Shown here in pieces: positions 2,041 to 37,989 of a stretch of 37,989 nucleotides of DNA (positions are counted from its first letter, which is position 1; every line of letters begins with the position of its first letter). The notes beneath the pieces are model-generated. The model was not told the origin of the DNA. It was given only the letters and a program-made list of their open reading frames with translations, and ran no database searches. Where the stretch lies: the NCBI GenBank assembly GCA_903930455.1, contig CAIYYT010000186.1, positions 1 through 37,989 of the forward strand, written 5' to 3'. The translations under genes were made by a program, and so were the position numbers. This DNA is from an uncultured bacterium (lineage in GTDB: Bacteria; Zixibacteria; MSB-5A5; CAIYYT01).

Positions 2041-4602
2041 CTATTTCGTGAAGGCGATCTTACCTCCTTTGAAATCAATCAGAATGTTATCACCCTCAAT
2101 AATCTTGTGTTCGATGATTTGCAGAGACAATTCATCAAGAATCTCGCTCTGGATCAGGCGCTTTAGCGATCGGGCGCCGAAGACTTCATCGTAACCGGCG
2201 CGGGCGAGGTGCTCTGCGGCGGCTGGACTGATACGGATATTGATGCCGCGTTTCTCCAGGCGCTCGGCGACAAGGTGCATCTGCAACTCAACGATCTTGG
2301 CAATTTCGTCCGGGGTCAGGCGCTGGAAGATGATGATGTCATCAACGCGGTTCAAAAACTCCGGCCGGAAGGTCTGACGCAGGATTTCATTGACCGCCTT
2401 CTCCTGCTGGACACGATCACGGGCATGAAGGGCGATTTGCTGCGAGCCAAGATTGGAGGTCATGATAACTACAGTATTCCGGAAATCGACGGTGCGCCCC
2501 TTGTTGTCGGTCAGGCGTCCTTCATCAAGCAGTTGCAGTAGGACGTTGAAAACCTCCGGATGCGCTTTCTCGATTTCATCAAAGAGAATGACCGTGTAGG
2601 GATGCCGACGCACGGCTTCCGTAAGTTGTCCGCCTTCTTCATAGCCGACATATCCGGGAGGCGAACCGATCAGACGTGATACGGAGTGCTTTTCCATGTA
2701 TTCACTCATGTCGATGCGAGTCAGCATGCGTTCGTCATTGAACAGGAACTGCGCCAGAGCTTTGGCCAGCTCGGTCTTGCCAACACCAGTAGGGCCAAGA
2801 AAGATAAACGAGCCGATGGGGCGGTTTTCCTCCTGAATGCCGGCGCGATTGCGACGGACGGCGTTGGCAATGGCATGAATGGCCTCCTTCTGGCCAACTA
2901 CCCGCTTGGCCAATTCCTCCTCCAAGTGGGCGAGTTTGACGGATTCGTCCAGGAGCATGCGTGTTACCGGGATTCCGGTCCAACGGGAGACAACCTGCGC
3001 GATGTCCTCTTCATCAACTTCCTCCTTCAGGATCTTCCGATCCTTCTGCAAGCTGGCCATGTCGGCCTTAGCGGCTTTGATCTGCTTGTCCAACTCCGGC
3101 AATTTGCCGTACGTGATCTCGGCAACGCGTTGCAGATTGCCCTGCCGCTCGGCTTGGACCGCTTCCTCTTTAAGCTTATCAACCTGCGCGGAGAGTTGTT
3201 TGATGACGTCAATGTGCTTGCGTTCGTTCTGCCAATGCAGTTCCAATCCGGCGTTTTCCTCTCTAATCTCGGCCAACTCCTTCTCCAGTTCGGCAAGGCG
3301 CTGACGCGAAACATCGTCCTTTTCCCTTTTCAGAGCTTCGCGCTCGATCTCCAACTGCCGGATACGCCGATGCAAGTGGTCGATCTCCGTTGGCTTGCTA
3401 TCGATTTCGATGCGCAACATGGATGCGGCTTCATCCATCAGATCGATTGCCTTGTCAGGCAGGAAGCGGTCGGCAATGTAGCGCGACGACAGTTCGACGG
3501 CAGCAACGATAGCGCTGTCGCGAATGCGCACGCCGTGATGGACTTCATATTTTTCCTTGATGCCGCGCAGGATCGAGATGGTATCCTTAATTGAAGGTTC
3601 CTCGACCATTACCGGCTGAAAGCGGCGTTCGAGGGCGGCATCTTTCTCGACATACTTACGGTATTCTCGCAGTGTGGTAGCACCGATGGTACGGAGTCTT
3701 CCTCGCGCCAGAGCCGGTTTGAGCAGGTTGCCCGCATCCATAGCCCCCTCGGCGGCGCCGGCGCCGACAATGGTATGCAGTTCATCGATAAAGAGGATGA
3801 TAGTTCCATCCGACTCCTCGACCTCGCGCAACAAAGCTTTGAGACGATCCTCAAATTCGCCGCGATATTTGGTCCCGGCGATCATCTGACCCAAATCGAG
3901 AGCCAACAGCCGTTTGTTTTTGATTGTCTCCGGCACATCGCCATCCACAATTTTCTTGGCAAGTCCTTCGGCAATCGCCGTTTTGCCGGTACCGGGTTCG
4001 CCAACAAGCACCGGGTTATTCTTCGTGCGCCGTGACAGGATTTGCATAATGCGTCGAATCTCATCATCGCGCCCAATCACCGGGTCGATCTCGCCGCGCC
4101 GCGCCATGGCCGTCAGATCGTGAGTATACTTCTCCAGAGTTTGATACTTCCCTTCGGGATCAGCATCAGTCACGCGTTGATGCCCTCGGATTGCAAGCAA
4201 CGCTTTGAGTACTTCATCGCGACTGATCGAGACGATCTTCTTGACCTCGCTCTGATCGATTAGGGCAAGGAAAAGGTGTTCGGTCGAAACGAACTCGTCT
4301 CGCAGTTTGCCGGCTTCGCTCTCAGCCTGATCAAATACTTTCTGCAGTTCCGGAGTGACATAAGGCTGCGTAGCGCCGGAGACCCGGGGTTGCTTGGTCA
4401 ATTCGGCCTTCGCCTTGTCGGCAGTGGCGGACAAATCGATCTCCAAGTGCCGCAGCAAAGTCGGAATCAGCCCTTCCTTTTGTTCGATTAGCACCAAGAG
4501 CAAATGCATCGGCGAGAGCGCCTGATGACCCAGTTGCCCGGCGAGTTGCATCGTGCCCTGTACAGCCTCTGCGGCCTTCGTGGTATAGTTACTGAAGTTC
4601 AT
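2041..4602 (-). CDS. clpB: ATP-dependent disaggregase ClpB
   Basis: At 853 residues this is close to the family norm (about 857). ClpB is a hexameric AAA+ chaperone that, with DnaK, pulls polypeptides out of aggregates after heat stress. The N-terminal Clp repeat domain spans about residues 1-145. AAA-1 has Walker A GEPGTGKT at 201-208 and an I-I-L-F-I-D-E-L-H Walker B. The coiled-coil middle domain, rich in Glu, Lys and Arg, covers about 400-530 and distinguishes ClpB from ClpA. AAA-2 has Walker A GPTGVGKT at 603-610, with the pore motif G-Y-V-G-Y-E-E-G-G after it. The start is supported by GGAGGTGA seven bases before the ATG. It is transcribed alone from a promoter at 4665-4693. No obvious CIRCE element was seen. 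Confidence 0.97.
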
Positions 4603-4782: not shown

Positions 4783-4811
4783 CTGCCAAGAGGGGTGGCG
4801 ATGTGTATAAT
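4783..4811 (+). promoter_or_regulatory. Promoter of the cohesin-like gene, possibly giving a leaderless mRNA
   Basis: CTGCCA (4783-4788), a 17-base spacer and a perfect TATAAT (4806-4811) end eight bases before the ATG at 4820. Initiation about seven bases after the -10 box would leave a leader of 0-2 bases. No Shine-Dalgarno sequence exists between them. Confidence 0.5.
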
Positions 4812-4819
4812 GGCCGGGT

Positions 4820-5539
4820 ATGCTGACCAACAAGATTGAAACCCTGCTCTCGTGTTTTGCCACGGCGTTGCTGCTGTCGGCGACACTTATTGCTGAAGGC
4901 GCCGATCAACTTGCGATCAAACAGAACCAGACCCTTCCCCACAGCACCGTGGCAATCAGATGTGATTCCGCCGCTAGAGCGGGGAGTGAGTTTGTTGTGG
5001 GTTTGGTCTTCAGCGACACGACGATGCCGGTGGCCGGGTTTAATCTGAATATCGAATATGATCGCGGCGCATTGGTGTTTGATTCGGCGACTCTCGGTTC
5101 TCTCACGGCCGGAGAATGGGAGTATTTCAGTTCACGGTCAGGATTGATCGACCAGTCTGATTCAGGCAGTGCTGCCGGATTCATCCGACTAGTGGCGCTG
5201 GCCGATCAGCCAGACGCGGAGAACAAAACACCGAAGCCGCGCTCGTTAGTGGGACCGGGGGAGTTGGTGCGGATCTATTTCTACGTAAGTGAGCGAAAGG
5301 AATATCAAGGTCGTTCGACATTTCTGCGCTTCATCTGGACGAAGTGCGACGACAACTCGTTTTCGGGCAAGGGAGGCATCAAGCTCTACGTCTCGCGCGA
5401 CGTTTGCGATGCCACCGGCAAACGACTGACCAACGGTGTCGACAAGTACGCCGGTGCAGCAAACAACTGTTTTTCCTCAAGAAACAACGCCCCGGTTAGA
5501 GTGCTCGATTTTCACAGCGCGGCGACCGTGATCAGGTAA
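4820..5539 (+). CDS. Secreted cohesin-like domain protein
   Basis: A 239-residue protein with an N-terminal signal peptide (hydrophobic core L-L-S-C-F-A-T-A-L-L-L-S-A-T-L-I-A, cleavage near residues 26-28). The remainder looks like one cohesin-type beta-sandwich: V-A-G-F-N-L-N-I-E-Y-D-x-G-A-L-V-F early and P-G-E-L-V-R-I-Y-F-Y-V-S late match the cohesin pattern 'GF.f.l.YD...L' and 'G.L..i.F.V'. Similar domains recur in large secreted proteins of Zixibacteria-like genomes, usually within much longer chains; here it stands alone without a dockerin. Four cysteines in the C-terminal half may form disulfides. Cohesins bind dockerins, and three dockerin proteins are encoded in this window, but a direct partnership is only inferred. 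The neighbouring clpB is divergent. Confidence 0.65.
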   Translation: MLTNKIETLLSCFATALLLSATLIAEGADQLAIKQNQTLPHSTVAIRCDSAARAGSEFVVGLVFSDTTMPVAGFNLNIEYDRGALVFDSATLGSLTAGEWEYFSSRSGLIDQSDSGSAAGFIRLVALADQPDAENKTPKPRSLVGPGELVRIYFYVSERKEYQGRSTFLRFIWTKCDDNSFSGKGGIKLYVSRDVCDATGKRLTNGVDKYAGAANNCFSSRNNAPVRVLDFHSAATVIR

Positions 5540-5680: not shown

Positions 5681-5714
5681 CAAAAAGAAACGGGCGGGTG
5701 ATTAACCCGCCCGC
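5681..5714 (-). terminator. Rho-independent terminator of prs-rplY
   Basis: A perfect 9-bp GC-rich stem (CGGGCGGGT, loop GATTA, ACCCGCCCG at 5691-5713) is followed on the minus strand by TTTCTTTTTG. It lies about 50 bases after rplY. The 140 bases between it and the cohesin-like gene hold no gene that I can see. Confidence 0.9.
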
Positions 5715-5764: not shown

Positions 5765-6457
5765 TTACTTCTTCTTTCCCTTCTCCGGCTCTTCTTCCTT
5801 TTCCTTCTTTTTCTCCGTGATCACTTCAGGTTCAGCCGCGGCTTCACCCTCTACAACAGCGCCCTCAACGGCTTCAGCAGCAGCCGGAGCAGCTTCCTTG
5901 ATCACCGTCGGCGGCTGCACTGTCACAACCGTGCGCGCCTTGTCAGTGAGGATCTCCAGCTTGCCAAGTTGAAGATCGGTCACATGGATCGCTTCATTAA
6001 TTTTGAGCGCCGTGACGTCAACAGTAATGTGACTCGGGATGTCCATCGGCAGGCAGCTAACTTCCAGTTCGCGGCTGACGACTTCCAGTACGCCACCACC
6101 CTTGACGCCTTCAGCGGTGCCGACAATGTGCACCGGCACCATGACGGTGACCTTCTTGGTCAGGTCAATGCGAAGGAAATCGATATGAACGATTTTTGAG
6201 GTGACCGGGTGATGCTGTACTTCTTTCACCAGCACTTTTTCCGGGTCGGCCTTACCGACAGCCAGATCGACCAGCACGTTTTCACCCCCACCTGCGTGCA
6301 GCAGTCGGGTGAGATCACGCCCATTCACATTGAGCATTTGTGGCTTTTTTTCCATGCCGTAGAGAACGGCCGGCAACATGCCAGACATGCGCAATTTGCG
6401 GGTGACGCTTTTCCCGGAACCGGTTCTTTCTTCCGCTTCCAGCAATGTCTCTTTCAT
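5765..6457 (-). CDS. rplY: 50S ribosomal protein L25 (Ctc family)
   Basis: A 230-residue L25 of the long Ctc/TL5 type. It binds 5S rRNA in the central protuberance of the 50S subunit. The N-terminal RNA-binding barrel (about 1-95) starts with R-T-G-S-G-K-S-V-T-R-K-L-R and contains the conserved G-x-L-P-A-V-L-Y-G loop. The second domain (about 96-185) carries V-P-V-H-I-V-G-T-A-E-G-V-K-x-G-G and D-I-P-S-H-I-T-V-D-V. The last 45 residues are an alanine- and glutamate-rich tail ending in a run of mixed Lys and Glu, probably disordered. AGGAG seven bases upstream supports the start. It lies 20 bases after prs in a two-gene operon, an arrangement common in bacteria, and is followed by an intrinsic terminator. 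Confidence 0.95.
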   Translation of the reverse strand: MKETLLEAEERTGSGKSVTRKLRMSGMLPAVLYGMEKKPQMLNVNGRDLTRLLHAGGGENVLVDLAVGKADPEKVLVKEVQHHPVTSKIVHIDFLRIDLTKKVTVMVPVHIVGTAEGVKGGGVLEVVSRELEVSCLPMDIPSHITVDVTALKINEAIHVTDLQLGKLEILTDKARTVVTVQPPTVIKEAAPAAAEAVEGAVVEGEAAAEPEVITEKKKEKEEEPEKGKKK

Positions 6458-28372: not shown

Positions 28373-28422
28373 GGTCGGTGTGTTGACGTCTCAAATACCC
28401 GGTCTGCTTTTTGGAGGATATC

Positions 28423-29397
28423 ATGACAAAAGTACGACTGTTGCTGGTCGTCTTAGCATTGCTGCTGCCTGCCGCAACGCCGTCGCTTTCTGCGGCCGCG
28501 ATTATTGCCGATCATACTACGGTCGCCAAGTTCAATCAGATTCCGGTCAGTTACTTCAATCAAATACGCGCCGATTACAACTTCTTCTATGGACATACAT
28601 CGCATGGCAGCCAAATCATGACCGGGCTGGGCATGTTGGAAACGGAAAACGCCACGCAATACGCGCTACCGACCGTCAGTGAATACGGCAGCGACCTTAG
28701 TAGCTACGGTGACACCAATTGGGTGCCGGTGACGCGGGACTATCTTGACGCTCATCCGGAGTGCAATTTTGTCATGTGGTCTTGGTGCGGAGGTGTCTCC
28801 ATCAATTCCCAAGAAGGCATTGATGCTTATCTCAACGCCATGAATCAGCTTGAAGTTGCGTATCCCAATGTCAAGTTCCTCTATATGACGGGGCACCTTG
28901 ACGGTGGTGGCGTCGACGGCAATCTCTATGTGCGCAACAATCAGATTCGCGGCTGGTGCGCGGCCCATGGCAAGATACTCTTCGATTTTGCCGACATAGA
29001 GAGCTACAGCCCCGACAACACCTACTATCCCGACGGCAGTGATGCCTGCGAATGGTGTTACACATGGTGCGCCAGCAATTCTTGTCCCGACTGTGGTGGC
29101 TGCGCACATTCGCACTGCTTCAATTGCTATCAGAAGGGCAAAGCCTGGTGGTGGATGCTCGCGCATGTAGCCGGCTGGAATCCCGAACCGGCGACATGTG
29201 GTGACGCCAACTCAGATGGAGGGGTTGATATTAGTGATGTTGTTTACCTGATCGCTTATATTTTCTCTGGCGGTCCGGCGCCCGACCCCCTTGAGTATGG
29301 CGATGTCAACTGCGACAGCACAGTTGATATCTCCGATGTCGTCTATCTGATTGGCTATATCTTTAGTGGTGGCTTGGCACCGTGTGCCGAGTGTTAA
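28423..29397 (+). CDS. Secreted protein with eight-cysteine cluster and dockerin-like tail
   Basis: A 324-residue exported protein of a family I do not recognise. The ATG at 28423 follows GGAGG at ideal spacing. Signal peptide: residues 1-25. The central domain (26-250) contains F-F-Y-G-H-T-S-H-G-S-Q (54-64) and M-T-G-H-L-D-G-G-G (155-163), with D-F-A-D-I-E at 188-193; these could belong to an SGNH-like hydrolase, but this is weak. Residues 209-235 hold Cys209, 212, 216, 221, 224, 227, 232 and 235, most in C-x2-C pairs, and resemble a metal or cluster site. Two dockerin-like calcium repeats follow (259-283 and 293-316). The tail may bind a cohesin such as the one encoded at 4820-5539. Confidence 0.75.
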   Translation: MTKVRLLLVVLALLLPAATPSLSAAAIIADHTTVAKFNQIPVSYFNQIRADYNFFYGHTSHGSQIMTGLGMLETENATQYALPTVSEYGSDLSSYGDTNWVPVTRDYLDAHPECNFVMWSWCGGVSINSQEGIDAYLNAMNQLEVAYPNVKFLYMTGHLDGGGVDGNLYVRNNQIRGWCAAHGKILFDFADIESYSPDNTYYPDGSDACEWCYTWCASNSCPDCGGCAHSHCFNCYQKGKAWWWMLAHVAGWNPEPATCGDANSDGGVDISDVVYLIAYIFSGGPAPDPLEYGDVNCDSTVDISDVVYLIGYIFSGGLAPCAEC

Positions 29398-36028: not shown

Positions 36029-37666
36029 TCACTTACACGACGCGCATGGCGAAGCGCCGTGCGTGAACATGTAGCTAATCAGGTAAACAGCGTCTGCTAT
36101 CGATGGCCCGCCATCGCAATCGACGTCGCCATTGTGACCGTCAAGCAGCGGACCGCCCTGGGCAAAGATGAATTGAATCAGATGTACTAAATCTGCGATG
36201 TCTATGCCACCGGAACCATCGTAATCGCCGCACAATGATGGATCATCGTCATAGTCAAGACGCGCAACAAATCCGTCCGACCAACCGCCTGCATATTGAT
36301 ACAACCACGGATTCTGTAGCGGGAAATCGGAAGAGCCGGTTTTGCCGGCCACGATGATCACGCCGTTGGCGGCTGCTACGGCCAGTGCCTTGTCATCGCC
36401 CACGCCACCATAAAGAGTGCTGAACTCGCTGCTGTCGCCGTCGGAGGAGATGATGCTAACAAAGACTTCACGCAATCCTGCCGACTCACTTTGCAAAGAC
36501 ATCATCGTGGGGAAATCGCTTGCCAAAGTCCAGCCGACGACTATGATCTTGCCATTTTTGTCAGCGACAACTGCGCTCGCTTCGTCATCGCCCGAAACAC
36601 CGCCGAGATATGTGCTAAATTGCACGGATCCGGTCGTCATGTCGAACGCCGTCACAAAACCGTCGGACAAACTTGGGCACGACCGACAAAAGCCTTGCAG
36701 CGGCAGGTGCAACGGATAATCTGTCGAGTAGGTCTTGCCGACAATAATCACCTTGCCGTCGGAAGCAAGCGCCATTCCCCGAGGGACATCATCCTGTACG
36801 CCACCCCAATAGGTCGATCCGATCAGCGGTATGCCGGATGGGTCGATTTTTGCGACGAACAGGTCAAAACCACCCATAAGCGTATCCTGCAAGGGTTGGA
36901 CAACCGGCAAGTCGGGCGAATTTGTCGTGCCGGAGATATAGATCGCGCCCTCGGGATCGATAACAATGCCGACGGCATTATCAGCGCCACTGCCGCCGAA
37001 GTAGGTCGAATAGCTTAGTGCTTTGCTGGTTGCGTTGATCTTGCAGACAAAGGCATCCGTCGCCGCTCCGGCCAGGGTATCAATCAGCGCACTAACCGTC
37101 GGGAAGTCGCTCGAACTGGTGCTGCCAACGATTCCGACGCTGCCGTAGTTGTCAACCACGAGGTCACTGGCTCTGTCGTTTCCGTTGCCACCGAGATAGG
37201 ATGAAAACAACAACGAGTCGCCGGCGCTGCTTAGGCAGACGATGAGCGCGTCCTCATAGCCGGAGTTCTGCGCCTTAAGCGGCATAACCATGCGCAAATC
37301 CGTTGATGTTGTTCCGCCGCAGACCCAGATACGTCCGGCGCTGTCGACGGCAATGCCGGTTGCCTGATCATTGCCGTTGCCGCCGAAATAGGTGCAAAAT
37401 TCCAACGTGTCACCGGTGGGGCAAAACTTGGCGATGAAAATGTCATCTTCCGCCGCGCGGGCGTCTTGAAGCGCATGCACGATCGGGAAATTGTCCGAAG
37501 TGGTCTGACCGGTAACATAAATGTGTCCCTCCCGATCGATGGCGACATCGGTGATGTTATCGGCCGCACTGCCACCGAGGAAGGTGGAGAATCGGACGGT
37601 CGGCGCGGCGAGAGCGGTGGAAGTGAGGACAAGCAAAAGCGCCGTTATGAGGTGTAACGTAAGCAT
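36029..37666 (-). CDS. Secreted SBBP-repeat beta-propeller protein with dockerin-like tail
   Basis: 545 residues from ATG 37666. A longer reading frame to 37768 would translate the intergenic repeats and is rejected; the chosen start begins with a clear signal peptide (M-L-T-L-H-L-I-T-A-L-L-L-V-L, ending T-A-L-A-A). Seven SBBP (PF06739-type) repeats of about 60-65 residues fill about residues 22-460, each with F-S-T-Y-L-G-G-x-x-x-D near its start and V-G-x-T-x-S-x-D-F-P later, suggesting a beta-propeller. Two dockerin-like calcium repeats end the protein (C-G-D-Y-D-G-S-G-G-I-D-I-A-D and G-D-V-D-C-D-G-G). No ribosome site is visible, since the REP-like palindrome lies directly before the ATG. 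Its function is probably surface-associated binding. Confidence 0.85.
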   Translation of the reverse strand: MLTLHLITALLLVLTSTALAAPTVRFSTFLGGSAADNITDVAIDREGHIYVTGQTTSDNFPIVHALQDARAAEDDIFIAKFCPTGDTLEFCTYFGGNGNDQATGIAVDSAGRIWVCGGTTSTDLRMVMPLKAQNSGYEDALIVCLSSAGDSLLFSSYLGGNGNDRASDLVVDNYGSVGIVGSTSSSDFPTVSALIDTLAGAATDAFVCKINATSKALSYSTYFGGSGADNAVGIVIDPEGAIYISGTTNSPDLPVVQPLQDTLMGGFDLFVAKIDPSGIPLIGSTYWGGVQDDVPRGMALASDGKVIIVGKTYSTDYPLHLPLQGFCRSCPSLSDGFVTAFDMTTGSVQFSTYLGGVSGDDEASAVVADKNGKIIVVGWTLASDFPTMMSLQSESAGLREVFVSIISSDGDSSEFSTLYGGVGDDKALAVAAANGVIIVAGKTGSSDFPLQNPWLYQYAGGWSDGFVARLDYDDDPSLCGDYDGSGGIDIADLVHLIQFIFAQGGPLLDGHNGDVDCDGGPSIADAVYLISYMFTHGASPCASCK

Positions 37667-37671
37667 TGGAA

Positions 37672-37695
37672 GGTCGCGACTAAAGTCGCTCCTAC
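37672..37695 (-). repeat. REP-like palindrome with GTAG head
   Basis: On the minus strand the unit begins GTAG, followed by GAGCGACT, a TT loop and AGTCGC, then GACC. GTAG- or GGAG-headed palindromes of this form are the known REP elements moved by RAYT (TnpA-REP) proteins in other bacteria. It ends six bases before the SBBP gene start. No RAYT gene is in the window. Confidence 0.7.
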
Positions 37696-37717
37696 GATCT
37701 TCGCCATTAATGGTAGC

Positions 37718-37743
37718 GCCGTCAGGAATCCTTTCCTGACGGC
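37718..37743. repeat. Palindromic intergenic repeat, G-T-C-A-G-G-A type
   Basis: A perfect 11-bp stem GCCGTCAGGAA/TTCCTGACGGC with a four-base loop. It shares its G-T-C-A-G-G-A arms with the palindrome at 9684-9709. It lies just downstream of the dockerin gene cut by the right edge and could be its terminator, although no T-run follows. Confidence 0.75.
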
Positions 37744-37752
37744 ATCGTTCGG

Positions 37753-37989
37753 CTAGAATGCGCTGCATGGGGCAGGGCCATGACTGAAGATATAATTGAT
37801 CAGATAAACCGCGTCCGCAATATCTATACTCCCATCACAGTTGGGGTCACCTGTCATTAGAGGTTGTGGCGCGCCACCACCCATGAAGATGTAATTGATC
37901 AGGAATACGACATCTGCCACAGTCACTGCCGCATCATTATCACAATCACCCAAGGTCACTGTCCGGAATGTAAACACCTGCGGCGACCA
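37753..37989 (-). CDS. C-terminal dockerin-like end of a secreted protein (truncated by window edge)
   Basis: The last 78 codons of a minus-strand gene that continues past the right edge. Two dockerin-like repeats are seen (G-D-C-D-N-D-A-A-V-T-V-A-D-V-V-F-L-I-N-Y-I-F and G-D-P-N-C-D-G-S-I-D-I-A-D-A-V-Y-L-I-N-Y-I-F), ending H-G-P-A-P-C-S-A-F. The part before them is too short to name. It is in tandem with the SBBP gene, 86 bases upstream of it. Confidence 0.8.
   Translation of the reverse strand, partial: WSPQVFTFRTVTLGDCDNDAAVTVADVVFLINYIFMGGGAPQPLMTGDPNCDGSIDIADAVYLINYIFSHGPAPCSAF

Follow-up and report, generated by a model that had tools for sequence, protein, structure and literature searches.

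The window analysed here, a stretch of 37,989 nucleotides, is the entire contig C186 of a 3.77-Mb genome assembled in 266 contigs. The open reading frame P0001 (4820..5539, plus strand) encodes a protein of 239 amino acids. It starts with a signal-peptide-like N-terminus (residues 1 to ~28), judged Sec-like by eye, and continues with what an alignment of 37 sequences (A2) and its residue tallies delineate as a bare full-length cohesin domain (residues 43-239, 4946..5536). In this alignment, the domain extends further than the Pfam match and fills P0001 to its last residues. Its landmarks are a WEYF motif (100-103), a CDDN motif (176-179), and C217. Two cysteines, C176 and C217, show no variation across A2 and may form a disulfide bond. 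Downstream of the Sec-like start, we found neither an anchor motif nor a type IX sorting tail. Since it has no sorting tail, P0001 may stay in the periplasm if the cell has an outer membrane. The gene is flanked, as context, by a divergent ClpB-like AAA+ gene (2041..4602, minus strand) and a converging gene for an L25-like ribosomal protein (5765..6457, minus strand), both named from sequence, with a terminator-like site (5690-5714) between P0001 and the latter. Promoter-like hexamers are located within 4783-4820 and end at 4811, nine bases 5' of the ATG; no obvious ribosome-binding site precedes the start codon in this stretch.

A first-pass annotation had described P0001 as a secreted single cohesin-like domain, and this description is borne out, mainly by the family to which the protein belongs. 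The Pfam Cohesin model (PF00963) matched residues 46-103 with an E-value of 0.0017 and 19 bits, short of its cut-off of 24.1 bits. An NCBIfam scan of P0001 gave no match, and PDB searches with P0001 alone or with a profile of the three orthologs matched no cohesin. Because P0001 by itself stays below threshold, its identity rests on the family profile. The P0001 sequence matched 92 of 117 related genomes at E <= 1e-3 and the A2 profile was present in 106 of them, which makes this a class-wide family; Pfam Cohesin recognized 17 of the 37 A2 members at E <= 0.01. Searched against the PDB, the A2 profile retrieved 28 distinct sequences at E <= 1, the best being Scaffoldin C (5lxv, 2.8e-4). By name, 26 of them are chains of scaffoldin, cellulosome-anchoring, cohesin or NagJ proteins; the remaining two, named "Endoglucanase", come from the cohesin-dockerin entries 5nrm and 5nrk. 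An hhalign comparison of A2 with the 1ohz cohesin gave a probability of 84 (E 7e-6). P0001 itself keeps all five invariant and 11 of the 12 nearly invariant A2 columns. This profile evidence identifies P0001 as one complete, divergent cohesin domain. An AlphaFold2 model of P0001, built from only two sequences, reached a pLDDT of 38.5 and contained seven strands and no helix; the top Foldseek match of this model was the cohesin 5lxv_A, at a non-significant E-value of 0.054. The poor quality of the model probably reflects the small number of sequences, and the cohesin fold of P0001 is predicted from the family profile. Searches for relatives found one locus in a collection of genome contigs and none in the viral contigs searched.

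The window also encodes three dockerin-tailed proteins, as the annotation had stated. A C-terminal type I dockerin doublet (29197..29397, plus strand; Pfam, 34.2 bits) ends a 328-aa protein (28411-29397). Another C-terminal doublet (36032..36230, minus strand) belongs to an SBBP beta-propeller protein (36029-37768; SBBP match, 2.1e-31) and scored 18.6 bits with Dockerin_1, below the cut-off of 22.9. The third (37753..37989, minus strand; Pfam, 38.2 bits) is the C-terminus of a protein truncated where the contig stops. All three tails show two calcium-loop/helix units and a dockerin fold, that at 36032-36230 being under the Pfam cut-off. AlphaFold2 modelled the 29197-29397 tail with a pLDDT of 82.4, and the best Foldseek matches of this model were dockerins (4dh2_B, TM 0.82, E 1.2e-3). 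Genome-wide, 95 dockerin matches over the cut-off were found in 92 ORFs, in agreement with the many dockerins previously claimed. At this density about one dockerin is expected per 38-kb window, so the three present are a mild excess at most and do not form a meaningful cluster. A special link between P0001 and the dockerins of its own window was therefore rejected.

The tails of this genome resemble each other closely. In a set of 40 tails with two recognizable units, identity between the units amounts to 82% over the 13-residue core, and I, S/A, I, and A/N/S occupy the positions usually regarded as recognition sites. Because the units are so alike, the dockerin tails of the genome may form a single recognition class. 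A cysteine is the penultimate residue in 26 of 46 tails, often in the context APC..CK, and may form a disulfide clasp. Both samples, the 46 and the 40 tails, are regular-expression finds in the retrieved stretches and thus a subset of the 92 ORFs. Pfam cargo was determined for 38 dockerin-tailed ORFs: SBBP propellers (10), DUF7948 (7), TSP_3 (7), beta-helices (3), FG-GAP (2), and one peptidase each of the families C10, C1, and M1. No glycoside hydrolase was found among the 25 of 27 Pfam families listed for these 38 of the 92 ORFs. Within the same scope, dockerin-borne cellulases on a multi-cohesin scaffoldin, as in a cellulosome, were not found either. The proposed cargo of proteases and propellers is supported. 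A search for GH48 gave zero matches, as did its control, so this search is uninformative.

The domain count also yielded 17 distinct cohesin ORFs in the genome, including weak matches down to a Pfam E-value of 0.12. Eight of them end in a type IX sorting domain and eight carry a dockerin or dockerin-like stretch, with an overlap of three. Neither feature was found in P0001, the contig-cut C126, C54, and C13, the last two of which have lipoprotein-like starts by eye. In the 182-aa protein of C54 (L065:2226-2771), a lipobox-like start precedes one cohesin of 25.9 bits; this is a second stand-alone cohesin, apparently anchored in the membrane. Type IX tails are present in eight of 17 cohesin ORFs versus two of 88 dockerin ORFs without cohesin (Fisher p 3e-6). 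The genome contains 56 such tails over the cut-off and a homologue of the translocon protein SprA (SprA_N, E 3.1e-35). In these two respects, tailed cohesins and SprA, the genome resembles the type IX-anchored cohesin-dockerin system of Ca. Stygibacter; P0001 itself has no tail. These sequence features support surface anchoring of some cohesins by type IX tails. The proposed assembly on the cell surface is accordingly plausible for the genome; it does not extend to P0001, which carries no surface anchor. The absence of a scaffoldin can be stated just for the window, since other parts of the genome encode cohesin proteins that carry sorting tails.

P0001 differs from most of the family members examined here in what follows the cohesin domain. 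We inspected 50 family matches, a selection made up of the best P0001 matches, its own paralogs, and hand-picked short ORFs. Eight loci that duplicate others (L047-L052, L054, L055) were excluded from the set, as were matches with a domain E-value above 1e-20 or ending before profile position 150. A dockerin-like doublet follows the cohesin in 39 of the 50 by pattern and in two more (L057 and L060), missed by the regular expressions, by eye. In 25 of the 39 pattern-matched cases, the two units start exactly 14 and 53 residues past the domain. In four other matches, a further cohesin comes next; one match is interrupted where its contig stops, and the last four terminate. Of these four, L076 proceeds in the next frame, which leaves P0001 and its two orthologs. 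L076 (G069) is an interrupted cohesin ORF, with the remainder of the domain and the doublet in that next frame. At G037:C11:15601-15777, a cohesin match was located inside an open frame with a reported length of 24,197 aa.

The two orthologs (L018/L054, 45% identical to P0001, and L019/L071, 43-44%; about 43-48% overall) share the end point of P0001. In a tree rooted at its midpoint only, the three bare sequences form one group (support, 100/100) whose stem measures 1.76 changes per column, and the tips within the group are shorter (0.37-0.72). P0001 is thus a member of the family truncated at the cohesin boundary, in one group of three sequences from two genera. The fused members carry a Cys-rich loop in A2 that the bare group does not have. 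The G002 ortholog, like P0001, has ClpB nearby, and in G002 a TMEM260-like gene lies between the two. This gene, for a TMEM260-like O-mannosyltransferase with TPR repeats (L054:7785-9791, L055:650-2668), is divergent to the bare cohesin in two of the three genomes, G002 and G004, and does not adjoin P0001 in the window. G001 and G003 match ClpB at only 45-56%, and the locus may be unassembled there. Absence of P0001 from these two genomes is therefore uninformative, and a true loss was not concluded.

Several observations bear on the question whether P0001 could bind dockerin tails. When cohesins detected by either model were compared with dockerins across 117 genomes, 108 had both, five had neither, four had dockerins alone, and none had a cohesin alone (Fisher p 8e-7, with kinship ignored; the five genomes with neither fall in two families). 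At E <= 1e-3, the four genomes with dockerins (18-42 each) and no cohesin by either model are G042, G052, G081, and G098. At E <= 1, G098 (one contig, 42 scored dockerins) and G042 still gave no cohesin, and G081 and G052 showed only sub-threshold cohesin matches. The correlation between the numbers of the two domains is weak (rho 0.28, and 0.15 when the comparison is limited to genomes with cohesins), with dockerins counted as first-look candidates, the best 50 per genome at most. The A2 profile and the dockerin profile separately point to the same three complexes: 5lxv_A, 3ul4_A, and 4dh2_A rank 1, 2, and 5 for A2, and 4dh2_B, 5lxv_B, and 3ul4_B occupy ranks 1-3 for the dockerin profile. These type I complexes, 4DH2 (OlpC-Doc435), 3UL4 (OlpA-Doc918), and 5LXV (ScaC) from Clostridium thermocellum and Ruminococcus flavefaciens, are the nearest solved structures by sequence for both partners. 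The Zixibacteria cohesin differs from them in its longer C-terminal half, where cysteines are conserved, and in the same-chain doublet of the fused members. Co-occurrence, the apparent single class of tails, and the shared complexes speak for binding; the dockerin-only genomes, the weak correlation, and the residue changes of the bare group given below speak against it. A cohesin-dockerin system in this genome is plausible from these sequence data.

The best explanation for P0001 itself, offered tentatively and with somewhat less than even confidence, is a single-domain cohesin exported by Sec that serves as a soluble, unanchored acceptor and receives dockerins in trans. It would have arisen inside the Zixibacteria cohesin family, in which a same-chain doublet normally follows the cohesin, and its lineage would have lost, or never had, this calcium-loop doublet; it carries no anchor. 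Without a cover in cis on its binding face, P0001 could act in trans, as a cap, adaptor or carrier for the near-identical tails of ~90 secreted proteins, either in the periplasm or after release, alongside the cohesin proteins brought to the surface by the type IX system. The residues of that face could also be read differently, namely that P0001 keeps the cohesin fold and has lost binding, having been re-purposed for another ligand such as a surface for adhesion, a glycan or a protein partner. We consider this rather unlikely, but it has several observations on its side. At the aligned equivalents of the dockerin-facing strands, the bare group has N, H or L where the fused family has L (position 77) and QPDA, QQDA or NQDA where it has TNNG (130-133), and D175 is replaced by K in all three sequences. 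The long stem followed by short tips, the loss of the Cys-rich loop, and the O-mannosyltransferase gene diverging from the ortholog in two of three genomes would also fit a new function. On the other hand, the bare group itself conserves part of the altered positions (DA at 132-133 in three of three), and in 4dh2 a dockerin-binding cohesin has an FNL..YD strand, so such a strand is compatible with binding. A change from Asp to Asn at the position of 1ohz D39 was rejected as proof of lost binding: the cohesins of 4dh2 and 1g1k also carry Asn there, and this residue alone therefore does not exclude binding.

The tails themselves might need no cohesin at all and serve as self-sufficient, calcium-stabilized anchoring or sorting tails, to which P0001 would be unrelated. 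Dockerins kept in genomes without a confident cohesin would fit this explanation, as would the penultimate cysteine of the 26 tails and the weak matches of the NCBIfam model for a "GC-type dockerin domain-anchored protein" (NF041540) to the P0002 tail (19.6 bits, E 0.0009) and the C95 protein (21 bits, E 0.00033), both below the cut-off of 29. But all five dockerin-less genomes also have no cohesin, a cohesin alone occurs in none, and the tails fold and align as ordinary dockerins, and we regard this explanation as unlikely. It is very improbable that P0001 is what the decay of some larger cohesin-dockerin protein has left behind: it does equal a family cohesin cut at its end, but the same truncation occurs in two other genomes at 43-48% identity and in a single group, and the invariant and nearly invariant columns are kept almost completely. 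A relic or pseudogene is thus disfavoured by the two orthologs and the one group they form with P0001. Returning to the free acceptor in trans, a more specific version would have the cohesin normally locked in cis by its own doublet, with P0001 as the unlocked form available to ~90 tails, for example by capping the tails in the periplasm and holding them apart until they arrive at the surface cohesins. We regard this version as improbable.

Cohesins and dockerins outside cellulosomes were reportedly described in a study from 2009. Our search of a literature library found no paper joining Zixibacteria and dockerin and none with the phrases for GC-type dockerins. Peptidase-bearing non-cellulosomal cohesin-dockerin systems have already been proposed for the planctosome and Ca. 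Stygibacter. The former, a hypothetical structure of the freshwater Planctomycetes Nemodlikiaceae (PMC6461901), resembles the Zixibacteria case in having cohesin-dockerin modules but no evidence for the degradation of cellulose, and also in its peptidase cargo and an adaptor with both cohesin and dockerin. Anchoring by a lamin-tail domain is proposed for the planctosome, whereas the Zixibacteria genome has ~90 dockerin ORFs, cohesin ORFs with type IX tails, and a bare cohesin without an anchor. Ca. Stygibacter (Cloacimonadota) is described as having a cellulosome-like complex with a type IX-anchored scaffoldin and dockerin-bearing peptidases and glycoside hydrolases (PMC8542988). Both organisms have peptidases that end in dockerins, as well as a cohesin protein whose C-terminal domain is for attachment to the surface. 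In contrast, Ca. Stygibacter has a scaffoldin of 3,755 aa with tandem cohesins and CBMs and a cargo of glycoside hydrolases, the latter absent from the families listed for the 38 Zixibacteria ORFs. In syntrophic sulfate reducers, cohesin/dockerin proteins are listed as adhesins (PMC10553843). As described, all three systems were inferred from sequence or expression.

The Zixibacteria case goes beyond these systems in scale, in its cis cohesin-dockerin unit, and in the bare cohesin. If P0001 indeed accepts dockerins in trans, an uncultured phylum would possess a very large cohesin-dockerin network that serves peptidases and propellers on a type IX surface and includes free as well as cis-fused cohesins, and the role of non-cellulosomal cohesins and dockerins would become testable by means of one small soluble protein. 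Should binding fail, a dockerin annotation alone would not imply cohesin partners.
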